64,000 nt of DNA, from NCBI RefSeq assembly GCF_937859915.1, contig NZ_CALMAW010000062.1:1-64000 (forward strand), read 5' to 3'. This document shows positions 1-27,566 of the stretch, one piece after another. Positions within the stretch are counted from its first letter, which is position 1, and every line of letters starts with the position of its first letter. The position numbers were made by a program, and so were the translations under genes. This stretch comes from an uncultured Sphingomonas sp. (lineage in GTDB: Bacteria > Pseudomonadota > Alphaproteobacteria > Sphingomonadales > Sphingomonadaceae). Below the pieces are notes generated by a model. The model was not told the origin of the DNA and searched no databases. It saw only the letters and a program-made list of their open reading frames with translations.

Positions 1-64
1 TGGCAACGACAAGTGATAGGCGCGCTGCCGCCTTAGCCGGGGTGTCCGGCGCAGCACCCGTCAA

Positions 65-595
65 ATGTCGAAGGAAACCACAATGAACGTGCTTCTGGCC
101 GATCATGCCCATCGCGTGATCAAGATCCCCGCGACCTCGATCAGGTCGATCATCGGCGTCGAGCATGCCGATCTTCCCGGGGATAAGAAGGGCTGCAAGT
201 CGATCCTCCGCTACGATTTCGGCGCCGGCCCGATGTTCGCCTGGCTGCGCACCGCGGCAGAGCAGGTGATGGTCCAGGCGACGAAGTTCGCGCCCGCGCC
301 ATGGGTGCCGCTCACGACGACCGAAGGCGACGACGTCTATCTGCTCGCGCCGTCCATCATTGCGACCCACGGGCTCGACCCTGACGAATGCGCCGGCGCC
401 AACACGCGGGTCGACTTCGACGCGTTCGGCGATGGGCGCGAGATCAAGTTCGCGACGGTCGTCGAGACCGACGACGAGATCGAGGCAGCCAGGGCCGTCG
501 TCGAGGCCAGCCTTGCCGAGGCGCTCCAGCCGAAACCCGCGCAGCTCAACAGCCCTCGTCCCGCACGGCGCGCCCGCAATCACGCCAAGCGCTGA
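65..595 (+). CDS. hypothetical phage protein
   Basis: 176-aa ORF, compact co-directional phage-like gene order; no recognised domain. Confidence 0.6.
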   Translation: MSKETTMNVLLADHAHRVIKIPATSIRSIIGVEHADLPGDKKGCKSILRYDFGAGPMFAWLRTAAEQVMVQATKFAPAPWVPLTTTEGDDVYLLAPSIIATHGLDPDECAGANTRVDFDAFGDGREIKFATVVETDDEIEAARAVVEASLAEALQPKPAQLNSPRPARRARNHAKR

Positions 596-628
596 GCCAC
601 CCGACCACCATCATAAGGATCGAACCCC

Positions 629-928
629 ATGGCCGACGATAGCACCACCACGACCGCCCCGACCGACGCCGAAGTCGCTCAGGCTCAGCAGGTCATCGCA
701 GCCTCGCAGGCAGCCGCGGCGGCGGCGCAGGCGGCCAAGATGAAGCCGATCACCGACTTCGTCGCGTCCGACAGCGCCGCCCAGGTGCGCGCCGCGCTCG
801 AGGCGCTGCTGCCGGCGTTCATCATGGACCAGACCTATGGCGCCTCGATCAACGCTGCTCTGACCGGGCTGCGCAATCTTGGCGTGCCGCTGCCGGCCGC
901 GGCGCCCGCGTCGGCGCCGACCGCCTAA
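629..928 (+). CDS. hypothetical protein, Ala-rich N-terminus
   Basis: 99-aa ORF in the same gene train. Confidence 0.6.
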   Translation: MADDSTTTTAPTDAEVAQAQQVIAASQAAAAAAQAAKMKPITDFVASDSAAQVRAALEALLPAFIMDQTYGASINAALTGLRNLGVPLPAAAPASAPTA

Positions 929-958
929 GCCCCACGCGTCCAGGTCGAGGAGAACCCC

Positions 959-2663: not shown

Positions 2664-5492
2664 ATGGTGAACACCGTCCTCGCGCCAGCGCCACAGGCTG
2701 CCGCAACGTCCAGCTTCACGCCAACGCCGGCTGCGCTGCGCACGTCACTCGACGAGACAGTGCAGATGGGCGCCGTCGCGATGACGCCGTTTGCCGCGAT
2801 CCAGGCGCTGCCCGGCACTGCGATCTATGTCGATCCGACCGAGACCTATCAGCAGATGTTCGGCGCTGGCGCGGCTCTGACCGAGAGCACCTGCTATGTG
2901 CTCGCCAACTTCTGCACACCAGCGCAGCGCAAGGCGCTTCTGACGATGGCGTTCGGGACGGATGGCTTCTCGACCTGTCGCATCCAAATGGGGACGTCCG
3001 ATTTCACATGGCGTGGCACGTCGGGCTACTACACATATTCCGACGCCGACGATGGTACCGACGCAACGCTTCCGAATTTCACGATCGCAAAGGATATGGA
3101 ATACATCATTCCAGTCTTGCGCGAGGCGCTGGCGATCAATCCACGCCTCAAGTTTATCTTCTGCCCGTGGTCCCCACCCGCGTTTCTGAAGACAATAAAT
3201 TCACTGCTAGGGTCGGTCAACGGCGTCCTCAACACCTTCAATGGCACGCCAGCAAATTACGCCATCTATGCCACCTATTTCGTCAAGGCACTGACGGCTT
3301 ACCGCGCAGCTGGCATCCCTGTGTGGGCCGTGACGATGCAGAACGAGGGAAACTACGGACCCTCGACCTATCCGGGCTGCGTCTGGACGGGCGTGCAGAT
3401 GGCCGCGTTCGCCGACATACTCGGGCCAGCGCTAGCAGGCGCCGGCTTTGGTCATGTCAAAATCCTTACCGGCGATATGAATTGGTCGAACGCGACGGGC
3501 TACACCGGCGCAAGCGGGGACCTCGTAACGAACGTATGGGCCGACGCTACCGCGGCGGGCTATGTCACAGGTGCTGGCTATCACGGGTATTCCACGGCCG
3601 GAGCGCACGAATTTGAGCTGTCGCGCGCGAAGAATAACCTCAACAAGGAAATCCACTTCACGGAGATGTGCTCGGTAGGAAGCTTGAGCAATAAGCAAAT
3701 CCTCCAGCAGCATCTCGCCAATGCGATCATTGGATCAATCCGCTGCGGCGCTAACAGCGTCACGTTCTGGAACCTGTTTCTTGAGCCCCTCAGCAACGGC
3801 CTGTATCAGCCTTTCGCACCCGCCTATGCGATCGTGGCGCCTTGCGCGACGGTTTCAACGGACGGCAATGCGACGGTCGTTAAGCGCCCCGAATATATGG
3901 CACTCGCCCACCTCACCAACGTAATGAGACCGGGCGCGCGCCGCTGTAAGAGCACGTCGTTCGGTGTCGGCGAGAGCGATCTTGTCGTCCAGAATGTGGC
4001 TTTCACGAATCCCGACGGCACGACTGGCATTCTGCTCTTCAACAATGCGACGACCGCGCAGTCTGTGTCGATCGTGGAAGGCCCGTCCGGTTTTGTATCG
4101 TTCCTGACGCTTGCGGCGGGTGACATCGTGTCGGTGAATTACGCCGCGCCGAAGAGCGTCGCCGCTACCGGTACTCTTACTGCACCTGGGCCTGTCACCG
4201 GCTTGACAGCCACGTCGGCGAATGGCGTCAATACGTTGTCGTGGACCGCGCCATCCGCGCCGGATGCTAGCGGTCTCGGTGGATATCAGGTCCGCCGCAG
4301 CACGACCTCTGGCGCAGAGGTCATCACCAACGGCGCAGCGCTTGCGGGGGATACGTCGTTCGTCGATTTGGATACGGTCGTCGGCACGACATACTTCTAT
4401 CAGGTGTTCCCGCTTAGTGCCGGCGGATTTGCTACAACGAGCCCAGAAACCTCCGTTTTGACGGCCGCGAGCAAGCCCGGCGCCCCCACAATCACAGTGG
4501 CGAGCGGCAACGCACAGAATATCATCTCGCTCTCCAAATCACCGAACACGAATGGTGCCGCCATTTCGGGATATAATATATTCCGGTCCACCACGGCTGG
4601 TGGAGAAGGGACGACGCCATACGCCTCGAACCAGTCGCTGCCCTACACGGACACGGCTGCCGCCAACGGCACGGCTTATTACTACACGGCGGCGGCGATT
4701 AACTCGGTCGGCGCGGGCGCGCAGAGTGCCGAGGTATCAGCAACCCCCGGCGCTTCTCCGGTGCACTATATGAGCGTGTCCGGTAGCAACTCGAACGCCT
4801 ATGCTAATGGCAGCACGGCAAACCGCGGCACGGACAGCTTTATCGATGCAACGGTTTGGAGCGCCCTAACGGCATATCAAGGCGCGACTAGCGGCAAGAA
4901 TATGCCGCTAGTTCATACTTGGTCCTCCGGCACCGCGGGGGCGTCCAATGCGTCATGGAACTTCTGCATGGGGCCAACCAATCTGCCCACGTTGCTGTTT
5001 TTTACAGCGGCGGGCGTTTACGGCTCGGCCGTAGGCTCCGCTGCGCTCAGCACAGTTTTCACTCCGGGCGCTGCAAACGGTATTTATCTTCGTGCGGCTC
5101 TCAATCTTGGTACGACGGCGGTAACATCGGCAATCATGGTCGGCGGTTCGACCGTTAACGGGGCTAACTCAGGCGGCACGGCATTTTCGGTGCCAGCGGG
5201 CTCGGCGGCGTTCTTCTACTCGACGGACGGAATCACGTGGACGCAGCTGGGCAGCACCGTCACTGGCCTCCCGACGACCGGCCTCAACCAAAAGGGCGGC
5301 GCACCCGTCGTCGGGCACAATGGCAACTCGGACACGCCGCCAACCGGCAAGTTCTTCAAGGCGATCGTCCGCAATTCGACAGCGATCCTGTGGAACCCGG
5401 ACTTTACTATCCAGGCTTCGGCTATCGCATCGTTCGCCGATACCGCGCCGACGCCGAACACCTGGAATATCAACAACTCGACGGAGGTATAA
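2664..5492 (+). CDS. GH30-like glycoside hydrolase with two fibronectin type III-like repeats and a C-terminal beta-rich domain
   Basis: Motifs VTMQNEGNYGPSTYPGC (acid/base region) and IHFTEMCSVG (nucleophile region) resemble GH30; two FN3-type repeats around residues 505-700; no clear signal peptide. Confidence 0.75.
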   Translation: MVNTVLAPAPQAAATSSFTPTPAALRTSLDETVQMGAVAMTPFAAIQALPGTAIYVDPTETYQQMFGAGAALTESTCYVLANFCTPAQRKALLTMAFGTDGFSTCRIQMGTSDFTWRGTSGYYTYSDADDGTDATLPNFTIAKDMEYIIPVLREALAINPRLKFIFCPWSPPAFLKTINSLLGSVNGVLNTFNGTPANYAIYATYFVKALTAYRAAGIPVWAVTMQNEGNYGPSTYPGCVWTGVQMAAFADILGPALAGAGFGHVKILTGDMNWSNATGYTGASGDLVTNVWADATAAGYVTGAGYHGYSTAGAHEFELSRAKNNLNKEIHFTEMCSVGSLSNKQILQQHLANAIIGSIRCGANSVTFWNLFLEPLSNGLYQPFAPAYAIVAPCATVSTDGNATVVKRPEYMALAHLTNVMRPGARRCKSTSFGVGESDLVVQNVAFTNPDGTTGILLFNNATTAQSVSIVEGPSGFVSFLTLAAGDIVSVNYAAPKSVAATGTLTAPGPVTGLTATSANGVNTLSWTAPSAPDASGLGGYQVRRSTTSGAEVITNGAALAGDTSFVDLDTVVGTTYFYQVFPLSAGGFATTSPETSVLTAASKPGAPTITVASGNAQNIISLSKSPNTNGAAISGYNIFRSTTAGGEGTTPYASNQSLPYTDTAAANGTAYYYTAAAINSVGAGAQSAEVSATPGASPVHYMSVSGSNSNAYANGSTANRGTDSFIDATVWSALTAYQGATSGKNMPLVHTWSSGTAGASNASWNFCMGPTNLPTLLFFTAAGVYGSAVGSAALSTVFTPGAANGIYLRAALNLGTTAVTSAIMVGGSTVNGANSGGTAFSVPAGSAAFFYSTDGITWTQLGSTVTGLPTTGLNQKGGAPVVGHNGNSDTPPTGKFFKAIVRNSTAILWNPDFTIQASAIASFADTAPTPNTWNINNSTEV

Positions 5493-5495
5493 GCC

Positions 5496-6764
5496 ATGAT
5501 CCGCACCCTCATCGCCGCAGCCCTAGCGCTGCTCACCACTCCCGCTATCGCCGCGACGGTCCCGATCGCACCTGGCACGCTCAACGTCCAACAGGGCGAC
5601 ATCCTCGTCGCCAGCAAGCCACTGACGAACGCTATCACGGCGGCGCGCACAATGGTTCAGCCAGCCGCGTCTTACTGGATTGACCGGATGACCGGGCAGA
5701 AGTTCTATCTGTCGGGCGGCGCCACGACGCTCGGCGTGCTTGGCCCGGCGACGAGCGGCTATGTCGCAAACGGCTTCCACTATCAGGTGATGGATGGCCA
5801 AGCCGCGACAGTAGTCGCCCCTGTCGCTCCTGTGGCACCGATTACCCCTGTCGTCCCGCCAGGCTCGGCCGGTCCGCTCTACGGCATCAACGTGAGCGGC
5901 GGCGAGTTCGGCGGTGCATCTGCCATCGCGGGCGCCCTGATCCCCGTTCCGGCCGACCTCGCCGCCTATCATGCGGTCGGCTACAACCTGTTTCGCATCC
6001 CGTTCAAGGCGGGCCAGCTTGATACCGCCCTGCCCAAGCTGGTCGCGCTCGCGAATTGGTGCGTGACGAACAGCGTCCCGTGCATGTTCGATCGCCACGA
6101 ATATAGCTGGCCAGCCGTCGCCGATCAGGTAGCGTTCGCGGTCAAGTTCGACAGCCTCATGCCCAAGAGCGCGTTCGTCCAGCTCGACCTGATGAATGAG
6201 CCGGGTGGCTTCACTGCCTCCAATGCCTGGGATCAATGGGCAACCGACGAGCAGGCCATCGTGACCGGCATTCGCAAGGCGGGCGTCACGCGGCGCCTAT
6301 GGGTCGAATGGTACAGCTACAGCGCCGCCTTCCGCTTCGACAAAGGCAAGCGCGCTCCGGCCGCCTGCGATAGCGCCGCCTGCGCGATGGCAAAGCTCCC
6401 CGGTGGCACCATCATTGATCCGCTGCACCTGACGGGTCTCGAAGGTCACCGCTACTTCGACAGCAATAGCTCGGGCACGCACAATAGCTGTGCCACGTTC
6501 ACCAACATCATGGCCTTCGCACAGCAGGCAATCCCGTTCGGCATGCCGGTGATGATCGGCGAGACCGGCCTGGGCAACAGCACGACCGGCATGTCGCCGA
6601 CTTGCACTGCGCTCGCGCCTCAGGTGATGGCCGAGATCAAGGCTGCACCGAACCTCTATGGGGTGACCTGGTGGGGTGGTGGCCTGCATTGGTCCACAAG
6701 CTACCTGTTCCGAACGCTGCCCGATGCCACCTCGCCCTATATCCAGATGACAACGGGGAAGTGA
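5496..6764 (+). CDS. GH5-type glycoside hydrolase (cellulase-like), exported
   Basis: Signal peptide MIRTLIAAALALLTTPAIAA; FRIPFK, LDLMNEPGG and PVMIGETGLG match GH5 catalytic blocks; Pro/Val linker VAPVAPVAPITPVVPP. Confidence 0.8.
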   Translation: MIRTLIAAALALLTTPAIAATVPIAPGTLNVQQGDILVASKPLTNAITAARTMVQPAASYWIDRMTGQKFYLSGGATTLGVLGPATSGYVANGFHYQVMDGQAATVVAPVAPVAPITPVVPPGSAGPLYGINVSGGEFGGASAIAGALIPVPADLAAYHAVGYNLFRIPFKAGQLDTALPKLVALANWCVTNSVPCMFDRHEYSWPAVADQVAFAVKFDSLMPKSAFVQLDLMNEPGGFTASNAWDQWATDEQAIVTGIRKAGVTRRLWVEWYSYSAAFRFDKGKRAPAACDSAACAMAKLPGGTIIDPLHLTGLEGHRYFDSNSSGTHNSCATFTNIMAFAQQAIPFGMPVMIGETGLGNSTTGMSPTCTALAPQVMAEIKAAPNLYGVTWWGGGLHWSTSYLFRTLPDATSPYIQMTTGK

Positions 6765-7133: not shown

Positions 7134-7451
7134 GTGGCCGACCCTTTAGTCACGGAGCGAGGTGCCTTGATGGACACCACTACCCTATTCCGGGCGGTCA
7201 GCTTGGCGATGTGCGTCGTCGTCTGCGGCGCGCTTTCACCGGCGACATGGCGCGTCGTCGCCAGGCGGCAGCGCTCGCTCGATCCGATTTGGTTCTCGGT
7301 CTTCTTCCTGTTCCTGAACCGGATCGCATTCCTGTTCCAGGGGATGACCGGCATCGGGTGGATGCTCGACTGGTGCTACGTCTCAGCGATCATCGCGACC
7401 GGGATCTTCTCCATCAACGCATGGGGGTACATTCGTCATGAGCGTCCCTGA
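7134..7451 (+). CDS. small membrane protein, possible holin-type
   Basis: 105 aa with several hydrophobic segments, located in the lysis-like region; true start may be internal. Confidence 0.5.
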   Translation: MADPLVTERGALMDTTTLFRAVSLAMCVVVCGALSPATWRVVARRQRSLDPIWFSVFFLFLNRIAFLFQGMTGIGWMLDWCYVSAIIATGIFSINAWGYIRHERP

Positions 7452-7926
7452 TGCCGTGTCCAATGTGAAGATCGTGGCCCAGTCTGGCCTGTTCGGCACG
7501 GGCATTACGCTCGGCAACGCGCTGATCGGCATCTTGAACCTGATCTGTGGCGGCGCCCTGGTCGCCTTCATCCGCACGCGTCCGAAGATAATGGAGATCG
7601 GCAACCTGCGCCGGAAGGACGAGTTCGACCTGATGAGTGAGCGGATCGCTAAGCTGGAGGGGAATATCGAGACGGAGCGCGCCGGACGTGAGGCTGAGCG
7701 GGTTCGACACGAAGCCGAGGTCGCCATCCTGCGGCACAGCGTCGCCAACTCCAACACATGTCTCGACGCCATCCTGTTGCTGCTCGAGGCGGCTCCGGAG
7801 AAAGCGGCCGAGCACGCGGCCAAGATCCGGAAGATGCGCGAAGATATGCGCGACCGCGAGGAGCGCGAGAAGTCCAGCTTCGCCGCAGCCAAGATCGCGG
7901 CGACCGCCATCCCGCTGAAGGATTGA
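7438..7926 (+). CDS. membrane-anchored coiled-coil protein (possible spanin-like or lysis-module protein)
   Basis: N-terminal hydrophobic stretch followed by a charged heptad-rich region; overlaps the previous gene. Confidence 0.5.
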   Translation: MSVPDAVSNVKIVAQSGLFGTGITLGNALIGILNLICGGALVAFIRTRPKIMEIGNLRRKDEFDLMSERIAKLEGNIETERAGREAERVRHEAEVAILRHSVANSNTCLDAILLLLEAAPEKAAEHAAKIRKMREDMRDREEREKSSFAAAKIAATAIPLKD

Positions 7927-7929
7927 GAC

Positions 7930-8460
7930 GAGCCCCGCCGCCGCAAGAGGTGCAAACGGCGGAACTCTGAGGCCAGGCAAGTTGGGGTTGCCTGCCCCTG
8001 CGCGCTCAACGGACGGCGAACCGAAGATGTTGCGAGCCCCGCCGCGGGTTTCCGCCGCGACGAGGCTCTAAGGTCGGACGAGTTGCGGCCCAGACCGACC
8101 CTGCGCGCGCCATAGCGATCTCATTACGAAGATGCGAGCCCCGCCGCGCAAGAGGTCGCCGCGGGGCTCTAAGACCGCCCTCATCAGGAAGGAAGCCGAC
8201 GGCCCTTTCGCGCTAACCACCGAAATCGAAAGATAGGTCCATGCAGGAGCATCCTCGCGCTCGCCTAGCTCGGCTGTTCGGCCTGGCGCTTGCCTATGAT
8301 CGCCGACGTATTGAGCGAGTCCAATTCCTCGCGCCTGGCACACTGCCGACGCTGCCAGGTCCTTGGACGATCTACCGCTTCTAGAAACGAGCCCCGCCGG
8401 CCGGGTGAGGCAGCGGGACTCTAAGGCCGCGAAACACCCGCAGCGGTCAGGCGGCCCTGC
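7930..8460 (+). repeat. tandem array of four two-hairpin elements (P1 GAGCCCCGCCGC..CTC, conserved TAA/TGA joint, P2 variable, then CCCTGCGCG)
   Basis: Copies start at 7930, 8034, 8136 and 8389. P1 spans 7930-7967, 8034-8068, 8136-8169, 8389-8421. P2 pairs: CAGGCAA/TTGCCTG, GGTCGG/CCGACC, GACCG/CGGCC (one mismatch), GGCCGC/GCGGCC. Confidence 0.8.
8241..8384 (+). CDS. small hypothetical protein (47 aa)
   Basis: MQEHPRARLARLFGLALAYDRRRIERVQFLAPGTLPTLPGPWTIYRF; preceded by atcgaaagataggtccATG, matching the leader of the 8494 gene (atcgaaggataggtccATG); absent from ORF track. Confidence 0.6.
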   Translation: MQEHPRARLARLFGLALAYDRRRIERVQFLAPGTLPTLPGPWTIYRF

Positions 8461-8493
8461 GAGCTTCAACACCCACCATCGAAGGATAGGTCC

Positions 8494-9012
8494 ATGACCC
8501 CACTCGCCTGGGGGCGCAGAGTCGCGCCCGATTTCCGAGCTCGCGTGCGCGCGATCGCTGATGGTCTCAGCACCGACCCGAATTATCTGATGGCGTGCAT
8601 GGCGTTCGAGAGCGCCGGCACCTTCCGGCCGGACGTGAAGAACGGTGCGGGCTCAGGCGCGGTCGGGCTGATCCAGTTCATGCCCCAGACCGCAGGTCAG
8701 CTTCACACCACGACGGGCAAGCTGGCCCTGATGACGGCGGTCGACCAGCTGGACTTCGTCGACCTCTACTTCCGCCCCTGGCGCGGACGGATGCACAACC
8801 TCGGCGACGTCTACATGCCGATCCTGTGGCCCGACGCGGTCGGCAAGCCGGACAGCTACGTGATGTTCAGCGAGGGCGATGCGCACCCGGCGCGCTACCT
8901 CCAGAACCGTGGCCTCGATGCCGACCATAGCGGGCGGATCACGCGCGGTGAGGTCTGCGCGGCGGTCGCGGCGAAGCTGGCAGCGGGAATGTTGCCGGCG
9001 AATGCGGCATGA
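8494..9012 (+). CDS. putative phage endolysin / transglycosylase-like muramidase with EF-hand loop
   Basis: AFESAGTFRPDVKNGAGSGAVGLIQFMPQTA resembles the SLT/GH23 catalytic region; C-terminal DADHSGRITRGE matches the EF-hand loop. Confidence 0.75.
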   Translation: MTPLAWGRRVAPDFRARVRAIADGLSTDPNYLMACMAFESAGTFRPDVKNGAGSGAVGLIQFMPQTAGQLHTTTGKLALMTAVDQLDFVDLYFRPWRGRMHNLGDVYMPILWPDAVGKPDSYVMFSEGDAHPARYLQNRGLDADHSGRITRGEVCAAVAAKLAAGMLPANAA

Positions 9013-10369: not shown

Positions 10370-11149
10370 TTACAACATCGGTTTTTGGCGGTTGCGGCGG
10401 TCAGCCTCAATAGCTTGCTTGATAGCCATTGCCCCGATCGAGCTGGCATCTGCACACTGAATGTTGCCTTGTCTCGCCTCTTCCTCAATCCGCTCAGCAG
10501 ACAGCGCCTCGGCCGCCATTATATAGGCCAACTCATCGATCGACATATGATCACGGAGATTGGTTTTTGGCGGAAGACCGCGTTGTGCTCGGAGCTGATA
10601 AGACTTGCCTCCGAGGAGCGCTTGATAAACCGCCTCAGTGCAGTTCATGTACCCCTTCTCCGCGACACCGTGAGTCTTAAGCGTTAGGGTGTAGCTATTG
10701 CGGTTCGACCTAGTCATCGCCCGCATGCCCGCCCAGCGGTTAGCTTCTGGTGAGGCCCGCTCTAGGATCTCATCGGCTAAAGTTGGGTCGGCCGCCTTGT
10801 ATCGGAGGAACACCTCCTTCACTTCGATCGCAAGCTTTGGATTTAGATATTCCGCGTAATCAAGCGCCAGACGGACATCTGCGTATGTGCCGCCGCCCGA
10901 TCCGATCCGAGTCTTCAGCACGCGAACGATGTCGGCCTTCGTGTAATTACGGGATTTTCCCGTAATTAGCTCAAGCACCCGCTCTATGCGCTTCAGCGTG
11001 GTCGGAAGACGGACCCAGTCGCCGGGCCGCTGATTTTTGGTGAACCCTGCGGCGGTCCAAATGTCATTTAGCCGGATTAGGCCATCGCCGTCCTGGCCCA
11101 CAGCCTGCCCCCGGATGATCAGATCGCTTGGTTTCGAATGTTCAGACAT
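10370..11149 (-). CDS. KilA-N domain / phage antirepressor-like protein
   Basis: GLIRLNDIWTAAGFTKNQRPGDWVRL ... GGTYADVRLALDYAEYLNPKLAIEVKEVFLRY is characteristic of KilA-N proteins. Confidence 0.85.
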   Translation of the reverse strand: MSEHSKPSDLIIRGQAVGQDGDGLIRLNDIWTAAGFTKNQRPGDWVRLPTTLKRIERVLELITGKSRNYTKADIVRVLKTRIGSGGGTYADVRLALDYAEYLNPKLAIEVKEVFLRYKAADPTLADEILERASPEANRWAGMRAMTRSNRNSYTLTLKTHGVAEKGYMNCTEAVYQALLGGKSYQLRAQRGLPPKTNLRDHMSIDELAYIMAAEALSAERIEEEARQGNIQCADASSIGAMAIKQAIEADRRNRQKPML

Positions 11150-11405: not shown

Positions 11406-11522
11406 ATGCGCTCCGGCTACCTCCGCGATGGCACGCCCTACGATAAGGGGCATACGCGCTGGTCGTGGTCGTATTGGTTCATGGATACGGTGCGGCGTCG
11501 GCACGTTCCGAAAGCCGAGTAG
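11406..11522 (+). CDS. small hypothetical protein (38 aa)
   Basis: MRSGYLRDGTPYDKGHTRWSWSYWFMDTVRRRHVPKAE; directly followed by a terminator-like hairpin. Confidence 0.4.
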   Translation: MRSGYLRDGTPYDKGHTRWSWSYWFMDTVRRRHVPKAE

Positions 11523-11565
11523 CCCCGCCAGGTGCGCATCGCAGAGAGGCGCGGCGGGGCTTTAT
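11521..11565 (+). terminator. terminator-like hairpin AGCCCCGCC..GGCGGGGCTTTA
   Basis: 9-bp GC-rich stem followed by a short T run, after the 38-aa ORF. Confidence 0.5.
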
Positions 11566-26710: not shown

Positions 26711-27464
26711 CCTTCGCATAGGAACGCGCGCCGAACGGCACCGCGATCAGATAGGCCAGTGCGAACAGCGACAAGGTCGGCCATGGCGCGCTGACCAACG
26801 CGCCGCCGATCAGCGCGATCACCGCCAATGCCCCGAAGCGGACGTCGCGGCGCAGGCGGAGTGATCCCCAGCCGAAGGTCGCGACGCTCGACACCATCAG
26901 CACCGCGGTCATCGCGGTCCATGGTGCGACGAAATAGGCCGAGCGGAACAAGGGAATCTGCTGGCCGAACGCCAGCCAGAGATAGAGCGGCAACATCGCC
27001 AGCCCGGCACCCGCGGGCGCCGGGATCCCGGTGAAGAAGCCCGCGGCCTTGCGCGGCTGCTCGGTCGCATCGATCTGCGCGTTGAACCGCGCCAGGCGTA
27101 GCGCACAGCAAACCGCGTGGCTGAGCGCGATCGTCCAGCCGAATTGCGGCATATATTGCAGCGACCAGAGATACATCACGACCGCGGGCGAGACGCCGAA
27201 GGCGATCACGTCGGACAGCGAATCGAGCTCGGCGCCGAAACGGCTCTCGCCCTTGAGCAAGCGCGCGATCCGCCCATCCAGCCCGTCGAGCACGCCGGCG
27301 AGGATGATCGTGCCCACGGCCAACTCCCATTGCTCGGCGATCGCGAAGCGTACCGCGGAGAGGCCGAAGCACAGGGCGAGCGCGGTGACTGCATTGGGGG
27401 CAACGGCACGGAGCGGGATCCCGCGGCGTGGCCGATCACGGAAGCGCGGGTTCAGGCGCGGCAT
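26643..27464 (-). CDS. pssA: CDP-diacylglycerol--serine O-phosphatidyltransferase
   Basis: DGLDGRIARLLKGESRFGAELDSLSD is the CDP-alcohol phosphatidyltransferase motif; adjacent to psd. Confidence 0.93.
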   Translation of the reverse strand: MPRLNPRFRDRPRRGIPLRAVAPNAVTALALCFGLSAVRFAIAEQWELAVGTIILAGVLDGLDGRIARLLKGESRFGAELDSLSDVIAFGVSPAVVMYLWSLQYMPQFGWTIALSHAVCCALRLARFNAQIDATEQPRKAAGFFTGIPAPAGAGLAMLPLYLWLAFGQQIPLFRSAYFVAPWTAMTAVLMVSSVATFGWGSLRLRRDVRFGALAVIALIGGALVSAPWPTLSLFALAYLIAVPFGARSYAKVRRRGAAAPPPSSTPSASDLPS

Positions 27465-27473
27465 GACGCTACC

Positions 27474-27550
27474 GTTCCCCGGCGCAAGCCGGGACCCAGA
27501 GCTTCAAACGCGGCGCCCGCAATTCTGGACCCCGGCTTCCGCCGGGGAAC
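27474..27550. repeat. REP-like inverted repeat pair, family GTTCCCCGGCGNAAGCCGGGNCCCAGA
   Basis: Two imperfectly complementary 27-nt arms between pssA and psd; related pairs near 46405 and 63370. Confidence 0.75.
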
Positions 27551-27566
27551 GAAAAAGGGGCGGCCG

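Follow-up and report, generated by a model that had tools for sequence, protein, structure and literature searches.

What is encoded by the four tandem two-hairpin units that directly precede a phage lysis gene in the genome of an uncultured Sphingomonas sp., and on which strand does their structure lie? The window, that is, the whole stretch of DNA analysed, comprises 64,000 nt of contig NZ_CALMAW010000062.1 (hereafter C62). The units, of about 80 nt each, start at positions 7930, 8034, 8136 and 8389 and are spaced by 104, 102 and 253 nt, the final gap being widened by a 144-bp ORF, all as given in the original prediction. On the minus strand they occupy positions 8387-8467 (copy 4, the first on this strand and the nearest to the lysis gene; R2 score 81.2 bits), 8134-8216 (copy 3; 78.8 bits), 8032-8110 (copy 2; 77.1 bits) and 7928-8009 (copy 1, the last; 76.6 bits, minus strand fold -41.9 kcal/mol).

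The array is preceded directly by a plus strand gene for a 162-aa protein (7438-7926) and followed by a plus strand gene encoding an SLT-domain lytic transglycosylase (8494-9012; Pfam SLT, 9.5e-07), a phage lysis gene whose phage homologues carry the annotation lytic transglycosylase. The lysis gene has its ribosome-binding region and start, ATCGAAGGATAGGTCC-ATG, at 8478-8496 on the plus strand; the same sequence recurs after copy 3 (8225-8243), and remnants of it follow two copies of the array in the IMG/VR phage contig L063. The 47-aa ORF between copies 3 and 4 (8241-8384, plus strand) may not be a gene, has no Pfam or PHROG match and is absent from C88, the second prophage contig of the host. 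A coding role of the unit was rejected, as the frame is not constant and this ORF has no known relatives. Elsewhere in the prophage, genes for GH30 (with an fn3-like domain) and GH5 proteins at 2664-6764, in an apparent tail region, possibly encode depolymerase tail proteins, while a KilA-N domain gene on the minus strand (10370-11149) is convergent with the lysis genes and is a possible source of leftward transcription.

On the plus strand each unit comprises a first hairpin running from GAGCCCCGCCG to CTC, a TAAG or TGAG joint, a second stem and then CCCTGCGCGC or a variant. Read on the minus strand, the unit consists of a variable 5' hairpin (H2'; AGGGnnnn/nnnnCCUU), one unpaired A, a GC-rich 3' hairpin (H1'; GAGCCCCGC.../...GCGGGGCUCG, also given as GAGCCCCGCCG/CGGCGGGGCUC) and a G. 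The period of the units is about 103 bp, with two to seven repeats, and the loops are C-rich, with a C/G ratio of 2.47 versus 1.35+-0.26 in shuffled sequences (reached in 0 of 200 shuffles). In copy 1, H1' (7930-7967, minus strand, as for all the hairpins that follow) pairs GAGUUCCGCCG with CGGCGGGGCUC and includes two G.U pairs, and H2' (7971-7998) is formed by GGCAGGCAA.../UUGCCUGGCC. The corresponding arms are GAGCCUCGUCG/CGGCGGGGCUC (8034-8068) and AGGGUCGG/CCGACCUU (8070-8102) in copy 2, and GAGUCCCGCUG/CCGGCGGGGCUC (8389-8421) and AGGGCCGC/GCGGCCUU (8423-8458) in copy 4. In copy 3, with H1' at 8136-8169 and H2' at 8171-8206, the A.C mismatch of the second hairpin on the plus strand is a G.U pair on the minus strand. 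The TAA/TGA joint, previously regarded as a conserved feature, corresponds on the minus strand to the unpaired A together with the base of hairpin 2. A conserved reading frame with its stop codon there is excluded by the distance from GAG to CTC, which varies from 33 to 38 nt.

The second stems have the sequences originally described, namely CAGGCAA/TTGCCTG, GGTCGG/CCGACC, GGCCGC/GCGGCC and, in copy 3, GACCG/CGGCC with one mismatch. The compensatory change claimed between copies was borne out in this stem but not in hairpin 1, where, among the four copies, the 5' arm on the plus strand is invariant and the changes of the 3' arm, mostly G->A, break plus strand pairs. The resulting C.A mismatches correspond to G.U pairs on the minus strand, so reversal of the strand explains them. 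RNAfold predicts one common two-hairpin fold on the minus strand for all four copies, with z-scores of -2.22, -3.00, -1.75 and -1.56 for copies 1-4, versus 0.06, 0.52, -0.85 and -0.07 on the plus strand, no better than shuffles. For the four copies alone, 82% of plus strand positions were paired, and the covariation score, reached by 20 of 500 shuffles, was modest.

A larger set of 16 copies was fitted to the minus strand model (alignment A7). On the minus strand 96.0% of the 298 cells are paired, compared with 87.8% (sd 1.0) in shuffles and 34-53% in slid controls, and 10 pairs carry changes on both sides, compared with 3.7 in shuffles. These 16 copies contain 39 G.U cells on the minus strand and 3 of the reverse kind, the count favouring the minus strand by 16:0 in H1' alone and by 26:2 in the copies of L063 and of the host contig C4, which were outside the model building; the binomial tests on wobble cells assume independence, and the cells are not fully independent. 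In the 5' arm of H1' on the minus strand, C->U accounts for 18 of the 21 changes. Since these pair counts depend on an alignment fitted to the structure, 17 copies were also tested without alignment. The best stem without interruption directly adjoining H1' has a mean length of 7.82 bp on the minus strand and 5.18 bp on the plus strand, with 5.05+-0.33 bp (maximum 6.41) in 2000 shuffles. This test agrees with the pair counts, hairpin 2 exceeding the shuffles on the minus strand only, and the summed fold energy has a z-score of -14.5 on the minus and -7.6 on the plus strand. The pattern of base changes among the copies thus indicates that the conserved structure very probably belongs to the minus strand.

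The original prediction, which had read the structure on the wrong strand, named a cis-regulatory leader as one possible function. A sense-strand leader was rejected, the plus strand folds of the four copies and the plus strand hairpin 2 of the 17 copies both being at the shuffled level, while pairing is kept on the strand that opposes the lysis gene. Arrays of hairpins can be mistaken for sense leaders when they are read in the orientation of the gene. The packaging or processing role suggested at the same time found no support.

The array is real, and the structured element that it repeats is undescribed. Shuffled sequences were rejected in tests on 16-18 copies, and related copies are present in three other contigs, so the view that the array exceeds chance holds. 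A covariance model built from the four window copies (R1) detected the element elsewhere in the host genome, in contigs C88 and C4. C88 contains two copies between the upstream gene and the SLT transglycosylase gene. A pattern scan of IMG/VR revealed five copies in L063, in the same intergenic spot upstream of the SLT gene; another contig, L064, is a fragment of the L063 sequence. Thus, the array precedes the SLT gene in C62, C88 and L063, and the proposed link to the phage lysis module is strengthened by this recurrence next to the lysis gene in other phages. In C4, a longer, degraded array of five strong and two weak copies (L059:2765-5438) lies near recJ and a transposase fragment. A stretch of 430 bp there has 75% identity to C88 13968-14397 and is perhaps a prophage remnant.

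Copy number differs between loci (2, 4, 5 and up to 7), and the units appear to recombine, because copy 2 of C88 resembles a hybrid, its hairpin 1 being that of C62 copy 3 and its hairpin 2 and downstream DNA those of C62 copy 4. The one-strand folding, the tandem units, the changing copy number and this hybrid would be consistent with structured single-stranded DNA of the bottom strand, a site for protein binding, recombination or replication, comparable to attC or REP, that folds when the duplex opens. A single-stranded DNA role was also raised for the tandem STAXI motifs (PMC2864571). STAXI motifs (Weinberg et al. 2010) are likewise tandem structured repeats, but they are pseudoknots near SSB, integrase or antirestriction genes, whereas the array consists of two-hairpin units by a lysis gene. 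The attC sites of integrons are also tandem and fold on the bottom strand, but each is a single imperfect hairpin with R boxes, and paired boxes of the RYYYAAC/GTTRRRY type were found around none of the 17 copies, by which integron cassettes were excluded. Moreover, conservation of wobble pairs is typical of RNA, and recombination of repeats needs no special site. A DNA site of this kind is therefore decidedly improbable.

The direct range of the element is narrow, as no other genome gave a strong match: strong scores were confined to the host both with R1 across 400 genomes of the family and with R3 across 300 genomes of the order, and the next-best match, L151, is an ordinary terminator-like hairpin. 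A pattern scan of GTDB genome contigs returned two single matches, both unrelated. BLAST of the array against phages yielded a 46-nt chance match only, and with the lysis gene included the transglycosylase alone was matched, in phages and plasmids. No Rfam 15 family matched the window at the gathering threshold, and a relaxed scan gave no meaningful E-value, in agreement with the expectation that the element is undescribed. None of the outcomes named beforehand as counting against the prediction (detection of this locus only, lack of covariation, simple terminators or a known Rfam family) occurred.

The sub-threshold Rfam matches in the window are all to sRNAs on the minus strand and mostly at chance level: the ar14 (cuckoo sRNA, RF02344) model reached 15.2 bits at best (E 2.5; gathering 58.8), and sX13 15.1 and 15.0 bits (gathering 50). 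In L063, CcsR1 (13.2 bits; gathering 65.3) and Atu_C7 (far below its gathering score of 45) were matched weakly on the same strand as the element. The sibling units in tandem, the variable 5' hairpin combined with a terminator-like 3' hairpin, and the C-rich loops would likewise suit an array of trans-acting sRNAs or a sponge. Its units would be processed to sRNAs of about 80 nt, with loops that pair with host or phage ribosome-binding sites or hairpins that titrate a host RNA-binding protein, and its place by the lysis gene would be incidental. The ar14, cuckoo and CcsR sRNAs are also alphaproteobacterial multi-hairpin RNAs with C-rich loops, and CcsR copies occur in tandem. However, ar14 forms three hairpins whose stems vary and whose CCUCCUCCC loops are conserved (PMC10746234), while the array unit has two, with a conserved H1' stem and variable loops. 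The C-rich loops are not conserved: CCUCC occurs once among 18 copies and never inside a hairpin loop, so the CCUCCUCCC loop of ar14 has no counterpart. Since, in addition, the Rfam scores are far below gathering and no promoter was recognised for the individual units, a trans-acting function is considered unlikely. CRISPR-like repeats and RNA-based anti-CRISPRs were set apart by anatomy alone (variable loops, 80-nt unit), and type III toxin-antitoxin repeats were discarded, no ToxN-like gene being present among the scanned neighbouring proteins.

The GC-rich hairpin CCCCGC/GCGGGG of H1' is shared with rho-independent terminators, and resembles sphingomonad intrinsic terminators having a U-tract (L151 and L155). 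An array of minus strand hairpins could therefore stop or slow antisense transcription entering the late operon from the right, where the leftward KilA-N gene is located. Immediately after H1' there is a mild excess of T (0.30-0.34), with 4-5 T in a few copies (C88 copy 2, L063 copy 4). However, with a T fraction of 0.30 in the 8 nt after H1', most copies lack a U-tract (e.g. CUCGCAACAUC and CUCGCCCCUGC), and a terminator scan limited to loops of 3-8 nt found none at the array. A terminator or insulator needs neither the covariation of H2' nor its abutment to H1' at one nucleotide, both of which distinguish the array from rho-independent terminators, and the C88 ORFs tested gave no KilA-N match. 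This explanation appears quite unlikely. An ordinary terminator-like hairpin, AGCCCCGCC/GGCGGGGCTTTA, is located near the right end of the prophage (11520-11563), and the H1-like sequence there scores only 8-15 bits.

The size and anatomy of the unit, about 80 nt with two stem-loops in the predicted minus strand folds, also match HK022 putRNA, an RNA of about 70 nt with two stem-loops (PMC9378689). A put-like antiterminator, with its two stem-loops and one-nucleotide joint, would modify RNA polymerase on a leftward transcript. However, HK022 put lies within the transcript that it antiterminates, upstream of its target operon and in sense with it, whereas the array is tandem and antisense to all nearby late genes, the recognised late genes being on the plus and the structure on the minus strand. 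Downstream of the array, the window showed no recognisable leftward operon, the minus strand ORFs being ones that overlap plus strand genes. Such a function is very improbable.

The explanation tentatively favoured here is that the array encodes an undescribed structured antisense RNA, which would probably regulate the downstream lysis gene. The paired minus strand units stand in tandem directly before this gene, on the strand opposite to it; we infer both the transcription of the array and its function. Leftward transcription would start in or beyond the transglycosylase gene, and the resulting RNA would be perfectly complementary to the gene's long 5' leader. Stable hairpins may give the RNA its lifetime, and the exposed C-rich loops may let it engage the sense message quickly; most likely, expression of the lysis gene would be lowered or delayed in the lysogen or in early infection, with the dose tuned by copy number. 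A weak motif scan of the minus strand to the right of the array detected no recognisable promoter.

Several RNAs are known to be encoded opposite phage genes of lysis or lysogeny, including lambda OOP and aQ and P22 sar. A precedent for the favoured explanation is PAK_P4as15, an antisense RNA which has been assigned to the endolysin gene of a phage (PMC12197685). These are single RNAs with known expression, whereas the array consists of tandem covarying two-hairpin units known from sequence. A plain cis-antisense RNA needs neither tandem repeats nor covariation, and G.T pairs could stabilise single-stranded DNA as well. Because simple antisense pairing leaves the tandem repetition and the variable H2' unexplained, the alternatives retain some probability. 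Few structured RNAs lying antisense to lysis genes of phages have been catalogued, and tandem arrays of such RNAs were not found described in the literature. Because counting wobble pairs suffices to tell the strand from the sequence, the antisense proposal is directly testable; if function were shown, lysis control would gain a further level, exerted by RNA, and a regulatory module tunable by copy number.

Diverged relatives were reached in another genus of the family (genome G305) through homologs of the 162-aa upstream gene, relatives of which precede the arrays in both L063 and the G305 prophages. Two G305 prophages contain tandem hairpin pairs on the minus strand, flanked by the upstream-gene relative and a gene for a presumed endolysin (L053 900-1500; L056 1200-1470). 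The closing pairs differ (GUGCC/GGCAC, GACGC/GCGUC), and in each of the five elements examined folding is better on the strand that opposes the genes. Position and anatomy suggest that these pairs are likely homologous to the window array, the R3 score of only 14-25 bits giving no proof. It is possible, although doubtful, that such arrays represent a new, fast-evolving class of tandem two-hairpin antisense RNAs of temperate phages of sphingomonads, identifiable by their shape (two abutting hairpins joined through one nucleotide) and not by sequence, and setting lysis timing or titrating a host factor by copy number.

The lysis gene does not depend on the array, since the same transglycosylase occurs without it in L003, L005 and L141-L143. 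In the array-less L141, L143 and L004, one CCCCGC hairpin precedes the same lysis gene; these single hairpins fold better on the plus strand and were therefore not regarded as the same element. In L167, an IMG/VR phage that likewise has an upstream-gene relative, two strong GC hairpin pairs precede a presumed lysis gene (3740-4040); they are near-perfect by eye, so that their strand is not distinguishable.

Two further similarities were observed between the host contigs. The left ends of C62 (window 1-931) and C88 (L058 1-931) are 94.7% identical and then diverge, which may reflect either a pair of related prophages or the presence of strain variants within the assembly. A palindromic repeat of about 94 bp is located at window 27458-27551 and at about 5984-6089 of L061 (C4 19984-20089); it is common to host contigs in both orientations, with 77-86% identity, and is possibly a dispersed repeat.
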